From an uncultured Planctomycetaceae bacterium (lineage in GTDB: Bacteria; Planctomycetota; Planctomycetia; Planctomycetales; Planctomycetaceae), in assembly GCA_903858815.1 (NCBI GenBank), contig CAIOKE010000173.1:1-64000 (forward strand): a DNA stretch of 64,000 bases, given 5' to 3'. A program made the translations under genes and the position numbers. Shown piece after piece: positions 30,068 to 59,754 of the stretch (position 1 is its first letter; the number at the start of each line of letters is the position of its first letter). The notes under the pieces were generated by a model. The model did not search any database. It saw nothing but the letters and a program-made list of their open reading frames with translations, and was not told the DNA's origin.

Positions 30068-30609
30068 TGCCGGTTGCAGTTTGATGGGGTTGGCGAAAAA
30101 CTCACGGGATACTGCTTCCGTGTCAGGAAAAACATAACCGCTCAGACGCAATCGACAACACCCGTCAACTGACGCTAACGGCTCGCCAGTGGGGGGGCTT
30201 GAACGCGGTAGACGACGAGGGCTGAAGCCCATGCCACGACCACCGAGCACCAGTTCGGTGACGATGCTCCCCTTTACCTGGTGGTTATCAGCCCAAGGAA
30301 TGGCAGAGCGACGGGCAAACGTGCGCCGCGTGGCGGCTTTGAGTGGGCAACAGGTGGCCGGGCAGGAATGATGCGAGGGACAAAAGTCGTAGTCTGGGCT
30401 TTAGCCTGGGCTCGAACTTCTGGTCACCCTTGAAATCCCCAGTGTTCTTTAAACGATGGGGCCGAGCAGGAATGCTCGGGCTACCTTTTGTGCTCGGCGT
30501 CAGGTATGCCCGGGCTGCAGTTGTCGGCGAACAACGACCACTGCACACGGGCAATTGACTTCGGCTCGGCAGGAGCCTCGCCCTCCCGAGGGGAACTCCG
30601 GCGTGCACT
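30068..30609 (+). repeat. Half-kilobase dispersed repeat, copy A
   Basis: A non-coding segment whose reverse complement recurs at 48160-48578. Shared blocks in order include GTTGCAGTTT, GGGTTGGCG, CGCTCAGACGCAA, GGGGGGCTTGAACGCGGT, GGGCTGAAGCCCATG, CCGAGCACCAGTT, GGTGACGATGC, GAATGG, GACGGGCAAA, GGCCGGGCAGGAATG and GACTTCGGCTCGGCAGGAGC. Copy A carries an additional roughly 130-bp segment (about 30370-30500) absent from copy B. Several blocks are internally palindromic (for example GGGCTGAAGCCC, CCGAGCAGGAATGCTCGG). It fills the gap between the DUF1559 gene and the isomerase gene. Confidence 0.8.
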
Positions 30610-48162: not shown

Positions 48163-48578
48163 CACGCGATGCTCCCCTTGGGAGGGCGAGGCTCCTGCCG
48201 AGCCGAAGTCAACTGTCAGTGTTCAACTATCGTTGTTCGCCCACAACCGTAGCCCGGGCATTCCTGCCCGGCCGCCTCTTACCCACGCAAAGCCCCAACG
48301 CGGCCCACCTTTGCCCGTCACTCAACCATTCCGTGGGCTCACAACCACTCAGCAAAGCGGTGCCTCCGCATCGTCACCCAACTGGTGCTCGGTAGTCGTA
48401 GCATGGGCTTCAGCCCGTATCGTACACCGCGTTCAAGCCCCCCAACGGCCAGCCGTCAGCGTCAGCTGACGGCTGTTGTCGTTTGCGTCTGAGCGATTGT
48501 GCTCTTCCTGGCACGCAAGCAGGATCCAGTGCGTTTTGCGCCAACCCTATGAAACTGCAATCTGCCGCTGCTTACAGG
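48160..48578 (-). repeat. Half-kilobase dispersed repeat, copy B
   Basis: The reverse complement of copy A (30068-30609). Read on the minus strand it starts with GATTGCAGTTTCATAGGGTT and ends with GACTTCGGCTCGGCAGGAGC, then CTCGCCCTCCC. Shared blocks are near-identical, but a roughly 130-bp segment of copy A is missing. It is non-coding. Its palindromic sub-blocks (GGGCTGAAGCCC; GGCCGGGCAGGAATGCCCGG) could fold as hairpins. Confidence 0.8.
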
Positions 48579-54893: not shown

Positions 54894-54911
54894 AAAATGT
54901 GTGAGGTTTTC

Positions 54912-57035
54912 ATGATCAGCAAACCCCTTTTGTTTCTGGCTGCCTGTATGACTGCTGCTTCCTGTATTTCTGTGGCCACTGCCGGGGATCTGCCGCCCGA
55001 CAATCCATTCTCCAGCCCCAGTCCACTTCCCTTCCAGACTCCCCAGTTTGACCGCATTCGCGACGAGCATTTTCGTCCCGCGTTTATCGAAGGCATGCGG
55101 CTGCAACTGGCAGAAATGGACGCCATCACAGCTCAGACGGCTGAACCCACCTTCGAAAACACCATCACTGCCATTGAAAAATCCGGAGCCCTGCTGACTC
55201 GCGTCCGCAATGTGTTCTCCAACCTCACATCATCACACAAAAACGACGCCCTGCAGGCCATCGAAACCGAACTGGCGCCGCTGCAGGCTGCTCACTCTGA
55301 TAACATCCTGCTCAATCGACGCCTCTTCGCTCGCGTCAGTTCGCTGTGGGATCGTCGCGATGCACTCGGACTCACGACCGAGCAGCAGGAAGTTCTGAAA
55401 CAGCACTACGAAGGGTTTGTCCGGGCTGGTGCCAGACTGACCGATGAGCAGCAATCCCGCATTCGGGCCCTCAACGAAAAGATCTCGCTGCTCGAAACAA
55501 AATTTGAAGAACATCTGCTGGCACTGCTGAAGGAACGCGCTGTCATTGTCGATTCCGCAGCCGAACTGGACGGCATGTCCGAACTCGACATCTCCGCAGC
55601 GGCCGAAGCAGCAAAAGCACGCGGACTTGATGGCAAATACCTGCTGGAAATCTCCAACACCACCCGCGTGCCAGTCCTCACATCACTCAACAACCGCAGC
55701 GTGCGCCAGAAAGTCTGGCAAGCCTCAGCACTACGCGGACTGGGACAGAACGGCGGACTGGACAATCGCCCGCTGGTACTGGAACTGGCAAAGCTGCGAG
55801 CTGAACGTGCCCAGCTGCTGGGCTTCAAAAGCCATGCAGCCTTCAAACTGCAGAATCAGATGGCACAAACTCCGGAAGCCGCGCGAAAAATGCTGACGGA
55901 TCTGGCACCCGGTGTCATGGAACGAGTACGGCAGGAAGCCCATGATCTTGAACAGATTATGGCAACTGGACAGGCCCAACACGAACTGGCCCCATGGGAT
56001 TGGGAATACTACGCCGAAAAATTACGGAAATCCCGCTTCGACGTGGATGAGTCACAGGTCAAACCCTTCTTCGAACTCAACTCAGTACTGGAAAATGGTG
56101 TCTTCCATACCATGAATCTGCTGCACGGAGTGCAGTTCCGGGAACGCACTGACCTGCCGATCTTCCATCCGGATGTGCGAGTCTTTGATGTGTTCGAAAA
56201 GGATGGGAAACAAATCGGACTGTTCTTCTTCGATCCATTCCGGCGGGAAACCAAACGGGGCGGAGCTTGGATGAGCTCGTTTGTGGATCAGTCCGGACTG
56301 CTGCAGGAACGCCCGGTCGTTGTCAACACCCTGAATATTCCACGACCCGGAGCCGGTGAACCGGCACTTGTCAGCTTCGACAATGTCGTCACGTTGTTTC
56401 ACGAAATGGGACACGGTCTGCATGGCTTGTTTTCTGACGTCACCTACCCATCCGTAGCTGGCACCAATACCCCGCGCGACTTTGTCGAGTTCCCCTCGAC
56501 ATTTCAGGAAGACTGGGCCATTCAGCCAGCAATCCTTGCAAACTATGCTCGCCACTACAAAACGGGTGAAAAAATCCCCGCAGAACTGCTGGAACGAGTT
56601 GTGAGAGCCAGCCGCTTCAACCAGGGTTTCGACACACTGGAGTACCTCGCTGCAGCCATCCTTGACCTCGAATGGCACAGCCTGAGTCCGGATCAGATCC
56701 CGACGGATGTGGAAGCCTTTGAAGCAGCCACACTGAAGAAATACGGAGTCGATCATCCGGCTGTTCCACCGCGTTACCGCACGACCTACTTTGCCCACAT
56801 CTGGTCCGGTGGCTACTCCTCCAGTTACTACGCCTACATCTGGAGCGAAGTGCTTGCAGCCGATGCGTTTGCATGGATGCAGGCGAATGGTGGACCGACT
56901 GCGACCAACGGCGAAAAATTCCGTCGCGAAGTCCTGTCACGTGGCAGCAGTCGGGACCCTATGGAATCCTACAAAGCCTTCCGAGGAGGCCCGCCGACAG
57001 TGGACGGCCTGCTGATTCGTCGTGGACTGAAATAG
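54912..57035 (+). CDS. M3 family zinc oligopeptidase
   Basis: About 707 aa from ATG 54912, five bases after GAGG. An N-terminal signal (PLLFLAACMTAASCISVATAGD) contains possible lipobox cysteines, so the protein is periplasmic or a lipoprotein. Residues 35-480 show the thimet-oligopeptidase/Dcp pattern (TPEFDxIRDEHFRPAF-like start, AWDWEYYAEKLRKSRFDVDE). The zinc site TLFHEMGHGLHGLFS lies near 494-508 (HEMGH at about 497-501), followed by DFVEFPSTFQEDWA with the third ligand Glu. The C-terminus (FAHIWSGGYSSSYYAYIWSEVLAADAFAW) is the typical end. Length matches the family (about 680-720 aa). It degrades short peptides. Confidence 0.95.
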   Translation: MISKPLLFLAACMTAASCISVATAGDLPPDNPFSSPSPLPFQTPQFDRIRDEHFRPAFIEGMRLQLAEMDAITAQTAEPTFENTITAIEKSGALLTRVRNVFSNLTSSHKNDALQAIETELAPLQAAHSDNILLNRRLFARVSSLWDRRDALGLTTEQQEVLKQHYEGFVRAGARLTDEQQSRIRALNEKISLLETKFEEHLLALLKERAVIVDSAAELDGMSELDISAAAEAAKARGLDGKYLLEISNTTRVPVLTSLNNRSVRQKVWQASALRGLGQNGGLDNRPLVLELAKLRAERAQLLGFKSHAAFKLQNQMAQTPEAARKMLTDLAPGVMERVRQEAHDLEQIMATGQAQHELAPWDWEYYAEKLRKSRFDVDESQVKPFFELNSVLENGVFHTMNLLHGVQFRERTDLPIFHPDVRVFDVFEKDGKQIGLFFFDPFRRETKRGGAWMSSFVDQSGLLQERPVVVNTLNIPRPGAGEPALVSFDNVVTLFHEMGHGLHGLFSDVTYPSVAGTNTPRDFVEFPSTFQEDWAIQPAILANYARHYKTGEKIPAELLERVVRASRFNQGFDTLEYLAAAILDLEWHSLSPDQIPTDVEAFEAATLKKYGVDHPAVPPRYRTTYFAHIWSGGYSSSYYAYIWSEVLAADAFAWMQANGGPTATNGEKFRREVLSRGSSRDPMESYKAFRGGPPTVDGLLIRRGLK

Positions 57036-57204
57036 ACAGGCAGAACGTGCCAGAACCGCTGCATTCGTGCAGCCAGTTTCGCCGCGTTGTCTCAAAATCC
57101 CGTACAGCCCCCAGTGTCGCAGAGTCGCGACCCTCGGGGCCTTTTTCTGCGCCGCAAACCAGCACGTTGCCGCCCCTCGGGAAACTGGGGGGGGGGGACT
57201 GGCA

Positions 57205-57300
57205 GGGACACACCAACATTGCGATGAGCTGAAATGTATCGCTGTTGCCGGAATTCAACATCCCCCAACCGTCGGCCTCTCGTCGAAGTGGTGTGTCCCC
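57205..57300. repeat. Palindromic unit 1 (about 96 bp)
   Basis: It starts with GGGACACACCAACATTG and ends with GTCGAAGTGGTGTGTCCCC. The outer arms GGGACACACC and GGTGTGTCCC are exact inverted repeats. The interior holds TGAAATGTATCGCTGTTGCC and GAATTCAACATC, also partly complementary. Confidence 0.8.
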
Positions 57301-57342
57301 ACGGTCCGGATCAGCTGCAGACGATCGTCCGTTCAAAGTTGC

Positions 57343-57405
57343 GGGGACACACCAACTCGCTGCCGACAACCGGTTGCGGGCCGCGGGAGGCCGCGGGGAC
57401 ACACC
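57343..57405. repeat. Partial palindromic unit (left arms only)
   Basis: A GGGGACACACCAAC arm at 57343-57356 lies close before the left arm of unit 3 at 57395. No matching right arm is nearby, so this is a truncated unit. Confidence 0.6.
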
Positions 57406-57492
57406 CACATTGAGATTGGTTGAAAATGCATCACTGTTGACGAAATTCAACACCAGCCAACCGTTGGTCTGTCGTCAACGTGCTGTGTCCCC
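57395..57492. repeat. Palindromic unit 3 (98 bp)
   Basis: GGGGACACACCCACATTGAG to CGTGCTGTGTCCCC. The interior GATTGGTTGAAAATGCATCA ... ATTCAACACCAGCCAACC is nearly identical to unit 7. Inner arms GATTGGTTGAA and TTCAAC-CCAA(T/C)C also pair. Confidence 0.85.
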
Positions 57493-57516
57493 ACGCCCCG
57501 AAGGCGGGAGGGCAGC

Positions 57517-57527
57517 GGGGACACACA
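57517..57527. repeat. Isolated left arm
   Basis: GGGGACACACA, a single arm of the array family 29 bp before the next full unit. Confidence 0.5.
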
Positions 57528-57545
57528 TCGAAAACTGAGGGCAGT

Positions 57546-57639
57546 GGGGACACACCCATACCGAGACTTCGAAAAACAACCGCAGGTGCTGCAATTCCAC
57601 CGCCAACACCCGATACCCCATCCAAAATGGCGTGTCCCC
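57546..57639. repeat. Palindromic unit 5 (94 bp, variant interior)
   Basis: GGGGACACACCCATACCGAG to AAAATGGCGTGTCCCC. The interior (GACTTCGAAAAACAACCGCA) differs from units 1, 3, 6 and 7 but recurs in part at 57850-57880, so there are two interior subtypes. Confidence 0.75.
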
Positions 57640-57709
57640 ACGACCCGACCGCTGCGAGCGCATGAATTGGCGTGTCCCTGGGATCAGCGATAGCTGAGTC
57701 GCGAGGAAC

Positions 57710-57806
57710 GGGGACGCACCCACCATTGGATTGGGTCAAATGCATTACTGTTGCAGGAATGCAACATCAGCCCACCGACGGGCTGTTGTCAAAGTGCTGT
57801 GTCCCC
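57710..57806. repeat. Palindromic unit 6 (97 bp)
   Basis: GGGGACGCACCCACCATTGG to GTGCTGTGTCCCC. Its interior (ATGCATTACTGTTGCAGGAA, GCAACATCAGCCCACCG) is the same subtype as units 3 and 7. Confidence 0.8.
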
Positions 57807-57848
57807 ACGGTCGGCGCACACGGTGGCGCACACAGAAAGGCGTGGCCG

Positions 57849-57880
57849 GAACACACGCATACCGAGACGTCGAAAAATGG
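57849..57880. repeat. Partial unit of the unit-5 subtype
   Basis: GAACACACGCATACCGAGAC followed by GTCGAAAAATGG matches the left part of unit 5 (CATACCGAGACTTCGAAAAA) with a changed arm and no right arm. Confidence 0.6.
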
Positions 57881-57893
57881 AGCGGGCAGGAGC

Positions 57894-57991
57894 GGGGACA
57901 CACCCATATTGAGATTGGTTGAAAATGCATCACGGTTGCAGGATTTCAACATCAGCCAATCGTCTGGATGTCGTCGAAGTGGTGTGTCCCC
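57894..57991. repeat. Palindromic unit 7 (98 bp)
   Basis: GGGGACACACCCATATTGAG to CGAAGTGGTGTGTCCCC. Perfect outer 11-bp arms. The interior GATTGGTTGAAAATGCATCA and TTTCAACATCAGCCAATC gives a second inverted pair, so the unit can fold into a long imperfect hairpin. Confidence 0.85.
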
Positions 57992-58008
57992 ACGATCGCC
58001 GTCCAAAG

Positions 58009-58057
58009 TGGTGTGTCCCCACGCCCCCGGAGGACCGCGCGAAGTGGTGTGTACCCC
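58009..58057. repeat. Two trailing right arms of the array
   Basis: GTGGTGTGTCCCC at 58008-58020 and GTGGTGTGTACCCC at about 58044-58057 are right-arm sequences without left arms, closing the array. Confidence 0.6.
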
Positions 58058-58722
58058 AGGGTTGGAAAACGACGTTCGTTCCCGGCGGATTTGCCATGTG
58101 CAAGCTGGTAGCGAGCGAGGTGGGTGGGAGTGCGTAGAGAGGGAGACGGCCACAGAGGATTATCGATTGACTTGTTCAATCAGGCGGCTGTTGGATCTGG
58201 CTGGAATCCCAGCCTGTCAGATACCAGTTTCAGGCGGCCACCATGGGGTGTCGCGGGACCAGTTTTCAGTGACGAAGTCGCCAAGGAGAAAACTGATCAA
58301 ATGAACAGAGCTATGCCTGAGTCAACGTTTGTTGGAAGATTCTGGAAATTTTTCTTTTCTTCGGTCTCGATTTCTCAACGCTTAGATTGACAATTCAAGG
58401 TGACATCTGCATCCTGCGCAAAGTGTTCAGTGTCACGTCCCAAGCTGCCTCTATTTTCCTCGTCATTAACCAAAAACGCCGCATTTTTGCAGTTCCCGGT
58501 CGTGATAAACGATCGATAGACGAAACGGACGCAAAATGGCGGTGTGCGGTTGGGCAGTGCCTGCATGCTCAGCCGTGTTCTGTTGTCCTGTTCTGGTTCT
58601 ATCCTGTCTGTACAAGATTACCCTGGCCCTGAAGTCTGTGCCTCGCACGCTTGTTCTGGTCGTCAGTTCAGGTCTGGTAAGTTCTAATTTCCAGTCTTTT
58701 TTGTTTTCAGGGAGACGTCAGC

Positions 58723-59754
<1,032 letters not shown>

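Follow-up and report, generated by a model that had tools for sequence, protein, structure and literature searches.

The array of palindromic units of about 97 bp that lies between a peptidase M3 gene and a DUF1559 gene in the 64,000-nt stretch of planctomycete DNA analysed here (the window) is one local form of an 11-bp word, GGGGACACACC, which is dispersed over the genome in arrays between genes, most spacers being peculiar to one locus. The places of these arrays turn over between species, and in four array loci shared by two species the word is better kept than the linkers around it. We give an even chance to the reading that GGGGACACACC is the recognition word of a putative sequence-specific protein and has been multiplied by local duplication, which makes it the most likely of the explanations weighed below.

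All 14 words GGGGACACACC found in the window at up to one mismatch, 7 of them exact, lie within the array (Table 1) and none occurs elsewhere in the 64,000 nt, compared to a mean of 1.5 and a maximum of 6 words in shuffled versions of the window, none of 100 shuffles reaching 14. The words follow one another in the orientation + - + + - + + - + - + - - -, and five facing pairs of 94-98 bp each make up the units u1, u2, u3v, u4 and u5, which the initial annotation had located correctly together with the extra lone arms. Its two interior subtypes were likewise recovered: the interiors of u1, u2, u4 and u5 are 0.71-0.82 identical to one another and 0.45-0.55 identical to that of the variant u3v. 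The terminal inverted repeats, described there as exact, are indeed exact in u5 over 11 bp and in u1 over 10 bp counted from position 57205, but the other units differ by one or two bases (mismatches between arms over 11 bp: u1 1, u2 1, u3v 1, u4 2, u5 0). Across the units of the window, 18 of 22 arm columns are invariant versus 25 of 76 interior columns (p = 5e-5). The intergenic region (57036-58722) holds 0 predicted promoter sites and 4 terminator sites, shuffled sequence giving 0.3 and 1.9, respectively. A run of 11 G residues (57187-57197) directly precedes the array.

Table 1. Features of the word array in the window and of the genes on either side.
Feature	Position	Strand	Remarks
Peptidase M3 gene, upstream neighbour	54897..57035	+	also borders the locus in G007 and G010, without array
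Array, 14 words GGGGACACACC	57204..58056	.	up to 1 mismatch, 7 exact
u1, head-to-head unit	57204..57300	.	first arm AGGGACACACC
Lone exact word GGGGACACACC	57343..57353	+	
u2, head-to-head unit	57395..57492	.	
Lone word GGGGACACACC, 1 mismatch	57517..57527	+	
u3v, head-to-head unit, variant interior	57546..57639	.	
u4, head-to-head unit	57710..57806	.	
u5, head-to-head unit	57894..57991	.	sole unit with an exact 11-bp inverted pair
Lone exact word GGGGACACACC	58010..58020	-	
Lone word GGGGACACACC, 1 mismatch	58046..58056	-	
DUF1559 gene, downstream neighbour	58723..59754	+	N-terminal methylation motif

At the level of the 11-bp arm the array belongs to a dispersed repeat family, as had been surmised: GGGGACACACC has 175 exact copies in the 6.39-Mb genome of this species (G000), versus 1 copy of the reversed word. 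Since 9 of the 20 word clusters in the regions fetched from this assembly (99.4% complete, 373 contigs) are no more than 130 bp from where a contig stops, the true number of words may be higher. The unit of about 97 bp, by contrast, is no dispersed repeat. Searched against the genome, a 100-bp query built on u5 matched at full length four times, always in the window array, and its 13 other matches were pieces of 16-29 bp. The initial annotation had held that units occurring nowhere else and varying randomly between strains would be simple local duplications rather than a repeat family; because the arm is dispersed and the unit only local, the answer to its genome-wide search divides, the unit being a duplication and the arm a family.

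The words stand close together in intergenic arrays: 119 of the 122 exact words in the 20 regions fetched from G000 (out of the genome total of 175) have another word at most 400 bp away. When the stretches that follow words were grouped by sequence (68 stretches of about 120-260 bp each, some of them extending into flanking DNA, both strands counted), they fell into 35 groups, 31 confined to one locus and 4 found across loci. The largest group, with 15 stretches at six loci (L048, L052, L057, L059, L062 and L064 of G000), is a word-bounded spacer family of about 140 bp that carries a second word, GGGGCCACCCAC, and has a GTTG..CAAC-like centre; its consensus fold is weak (-9.6 kcal/mol). A rough tally of the gene context of 29 arrays gave 12 between divergent, 10 between tandem and 7 between convergent genes.

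Spacing and orientation of the words differ from array to array as well. Facing words are spaced about 86-87 bp head to head in the window, 110 bp in C215 and about 62 bp in C10 and C121. Words in direct orientation have their spacing peaks at 19-20 bp (G000), at 19, 23 and 34 bp (the congener G003) and at 14 bp (the congener G007), the latter with further runs at 18 and 29 bp. Back-to-back word pairs, 21 bp from start to start, were seen twice in G003 and once in G016 (both exact; L242, L227). Six genomes together have 49 arrays of four words or more, of which 32 are one-way and 17 mixed (one-way arrays: 10 of 17 in G000, 6 of 8 in G003, 10 of 10 in G007, 1 of 8 in G008, 4 of 4 in G016 and 1 of 2 in G010), so that facing words in a palindrome are just one of the layouts in use.

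These arrangements bear on the proposal that the units are MITE-like, or relics of a TIR transposon with 11-bp inverted ends, which we consider quite improbable. The words of the window do face each other, with 0-2 mismatches between what would be the terminal inverted repeats, and word orientation is mixed in 7 of 17 arrays of G000 and in 7 of 8 arrays of G008; yet most arrays are one-way, the interiors differ between arrays, and the bases flanking the five window units are identical at 0, 0, 0, 2 and 0 positions, that is, the search for target-site duplications suggested by the initial annotation detected none. Nor did a transposase recur among the families scanned at the loci. The 401 ORFs in 60 array loci include 12 families that occur in at least three loci, the widest in seven, and a Pfam scan of one protein each from 10 of these 12 (DUF1501, PQQ, DUF1549/1553, DUF58, MoxR-type AAA, MMPL, sulfatase, alcohol dehydrogenase, beta-lactamase and DUF1552), the remaining two being ORFs overlying the arrays and a 1305-aa protein, identified neither a transposase nor a recombinase.

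We regard it as very improbable that the fold of the 97-bp unit acts as a functional structured RNA or hairpin unit, another of the options initially put forward. Folded singly as DNA, the units are more stable than their shuffles, although the effect is modest (z = -0.78, -2.58, -1.48, -1.99 and -2.54), and a consensus fold contains 2 of 30 pairs that are changed on both sides. Against this, a three-helix model has 0 such pairs versus 0.9 in shuffles, the covariation term is a penalty (+3.56), region 57036-58722 has no Rfam match at E ≤ 1, and the genome search found the unit interior only in the window array. Covariation does not support the hairpin. The conclusion that the layout is neither that of a CRISPR array nor a known REP layout was upheld.

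Arrays of the word are present in this species and in five congeners. Among 98 relatives, high counts of the word are confined to the same genus (G003 105, G007 100, G008 44, G016 35 and G010 14); G012 has 6 words on six contigs, and the counts range from 0 to 3 in the remaining 11 congeners and from 0 to 7 in the 81 genomes outside the genus. The word places of G007 are those of the public record set 'Planctomyces sp. isolate F1-20-MAGs055', and a contig scan with a 14-base form of the word returned at least 115 stretches, the sole record with more than one match, among the 80 matches listed, being that of G007. In an enrichment analysis of 11-mers, GGGGACACACC or a version of it displaced by a single base ranked first in G000, G003, G007, G008 and G016, whose samples were drawn around arrays, and no comparable enriched word was present in the samples of G004 and G009 (two of the G009 contigs having been selected for GGGGCCACCCAC). 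In G010, GGGGCCACCCA and heptamer-like repeats outrank the word, the heptamer-like AGTGGTCAGTG and AACTGAAAACT being among its most enriched 11-mers. Another sequence, GGGAGGGCGAGGCTCC, is enriched in the samples of G000, G010 and G004 and has two exact copies in the window (30572-30587, minus strand, and 48180-48195, plus strand), where 0.04 would be expected with up to two mismatches.

The sister word GGGGCCACCCAC is itself repeated, with 21 exact copies in G000, 7 in G010, 4 in G009 and 13 in the more distant G071; copies were seen at L235 in G010 and at L241 and L269 in G009. A further related word, GGTGCCACCCA, occurs in G003. Viral carriers were also considered, and five IMG/VR contigs with two close words and one with the sister word, judged by eye, do not resemble the arrays. 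A high-GC IMG/VR contig (L334) has three evenly spaced words and is probably unrelated.

At the two loci compared, array places turn over between species. The two congeners nearest by M3 protein (91%), G007 and G010, have both genes of the window locus and no array between them, homology ending at the M3 stop codon and restarting at about 58315, ahead of the DUF1559 gene. Similarly, at locus L245, where G003 and G016 have an array in common, seven other congeners with a match beside it (G000, G005, G007, G008, G009, G010 and G012) had no copy of the word in the pieces compared, even when one mismatch was allowed. As congeners that do bear arrays are without one at these two places, no single place is needed. 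A counter-case to turnover is provided by G003 and G016, which have five arrays in common.

Distribution within the genus also bears on the BIME-like reading, according to which the words are REP/BIME elements that owe their movement to a Y1 (RAYT) transposase since lost from this species. Of 18 genomes of the genus, 12 carry Y1 genes, including the array-bearing G003, G008 and G016, but none was found in G007 or G010, and a search of the G000 assembly (99.4% complete, 373 contigs) with PF01797 had no match at E ≤ 0.001, while the word-free G001 and G004 have 19 Y1 genes each. The word is absent from all ten Y1 loci examined (L077-L086), and hairpin-type repeats of other sequence, identified by eye with the gene of L078 taken on the wrong strand, adjoin most of these ten congeneric genes. 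Presence of Y1 in the genus does not follow the word, and we rank this reading as extremely improbable. IS110-type recombinases, considered by analogy with the neisserial dRS3 repeat and set aside, number 0 in G000, G010 and G016 and occur in 7 of 18 genus genomes, including G003, G007 and G008.

Conservation of the word was assessed in five orthologous arrays of one species pair (G016 and G003). In the two longest matches, 17 of 18 exact and fully aligned words are identical in the second genome (197 of 198 bases), and in the opposite direction 14 of 16 words are (170 of 176 bases), compared to linker identities of 738/1063 and 604/781 positions and flank identities of 3360/3973 and 3576/4289; only 180 of 1492 linker 11-mers are identical. 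Position by position, 17-18 of 18 bases agree across the word itself, versus 10-15 of 18 at adjoining positions. As aligners pull words together, we repeated the alignment with all words masked. In the first masked alignment, 13 of 24 exact words were in register with a word, and all 13 of these were exact, but the 20 aligned words taken together were identical at 170 of 220 bases, no higher than the linkers (891 of 1103). Because masking leaves the register of the words loose, we changed the test to whether the site indicated by the linker alignment had an exact copy no more than 12 bp away. By this measure, four loci gave an exact copy for 13 of their 14 words, where sites chosen at random in the array would be expected to give 4.2, and for 59 of 583 linker 11-mers. 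The fifth locus (L248/L261), which is rearranged, had 3 of 9 words versus 3.2 expected and hence no excess, and over all five loci 16 of 23 words had a copy (expectation 7.5), as did 61 of 1175 linker 11-mers. For this species pair, better conservation of the word than of its linkers is thus clear in four shared loci and absent in one, and because the masked test supports it in four loci and fails in one, we left our weighting of the readings unchanged.

That the word is kept while the DNA around it drifts between two species suggests that some protein may read it, but no protein that binds the word was found, and tandem slippage or another homogenising process could also account for the likeness of the words. 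A protein that reads the word, selection in preference to a homogenising process, a route to new loci and a role for the arrays are all inferences. On this recognition-word reading, GGGGACACACC would be read, in this genus of planctomycetes, by a putative protein that binds or processes DNA in a sequence-specific manner, and the intergenic arrays would grow by duplication of the word together with neighbouring DNA, such that each locus would acquire its own spacer and its own period. Selection would keep the word while the spacers vary, and the 97-bp palindrome would be one local unit in which two words happen to face each other. We would guess that the arrays provide a many-site binding platform, in gene control or chromosome organisation.

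Ranked next, and possible if on balance unlikely, is a selfish satellite, in which an enzyme would nick, cleave or cross over DNA at the word and the resulting breaks or exchanges would drive tandem duplication and spread to new loci with no gain to the host. Several of our observations are in keeping with it: the word is common to the arrays while periods and spacers are not, array places turn over between species, and one word-bounded spacer family recurs in six loci. It also has a precedent in dRS3, some copies of which are described, in the available text of PMC3898611 and PMC3046118, as sites for a neisserial filamentous phage. On the other hand, the scanned recurring families of the 60 loci include no recombinase or transposase, G000 has no IS110, and the words are not decaying like linkers in 4 of 5 shared loci. 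A further and rather unlikely possibility is a drive-like system, in which a dedicated putative protein would both multiply the word and keep it intact without a transposase of known type. Word-bounded pieces would then be duplicated and moved between arrays, sister proteins of shifted specificity would act at the related words GGGGCCACCCAC and GGTGCCACCCA, and the staphylococcal STAR elements may be of the same kind. The 11-bp core and a species pair with diverged spacers give an edge to the conserved sequence, and the purpose of such repeats can then be put to a binding experiment in which the bait is defined.

Among the matches listed in our literature searches, no paper describing these words was found, their letters turning up in unrelated papers, and nothing useful emerged on minisatellite cores. 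Of known systems, prokaryotic satellite families resemble the present arrays in that tandem repeats of one family are scattered in one species (as described in the available part of PMC6749651), but here the 11-bp word alone is common and the repeat unit varies by array. REP/BIME elements with RAYT are likewise short, clustered and intergenic repeats in both orientations (available part of PMC3733652), although the present word does not have the form of a tagged hairpin and the search of G000 found no Y1 gene. Closer are the NIMEs of Neisseria, composed of dRS3 and RS units, where, according to the accessible portions of PMC3898611 and PMC3046118, units of about 30-160 bp are delimited by a short repeat and make up intergenic arrays as long as 2.7 kb. 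Unlike the present word, dRS3 is described in these sources as a 20-bp inverted repeat, ATTCCC(N8)GGGAAT, a subtype of which is a target of filamentous phage, and we found no phage or recombinase linked to GGGGACACACC. At 2 mismatches, the window contains the dRS3 core once versus 2.2 expected, and the consensus of the STAR elements, T(G/A/T)TGTTG(G/T)GGCCC(C/A), twice versus 4.1 expected; with neither core above chance in the window, the array is alike in kind to these systems and not a member of them. It is STAR elements of staphylococci that offer the fullest likeness, being described in the available text of PMC3532100 as direct repeats of a short GC-rich core in intergenic DNA, with spacers distinct to each locus, loci that depend on the species and uneven abundance among species. 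The core here is GGGGACACACC rather than the 14-bp STAR consensus, and some of our arrays have facing words. The function, mechanism and spread of STAR are not known according to its authors, who suggest purifying selection in the same portion of their text. What the arrays have in common with a STAR-like kind of repeat is a short core in intergenic arrays, spacers that are distinct to their locus (31 of 35 groups) and loci that differ between species.
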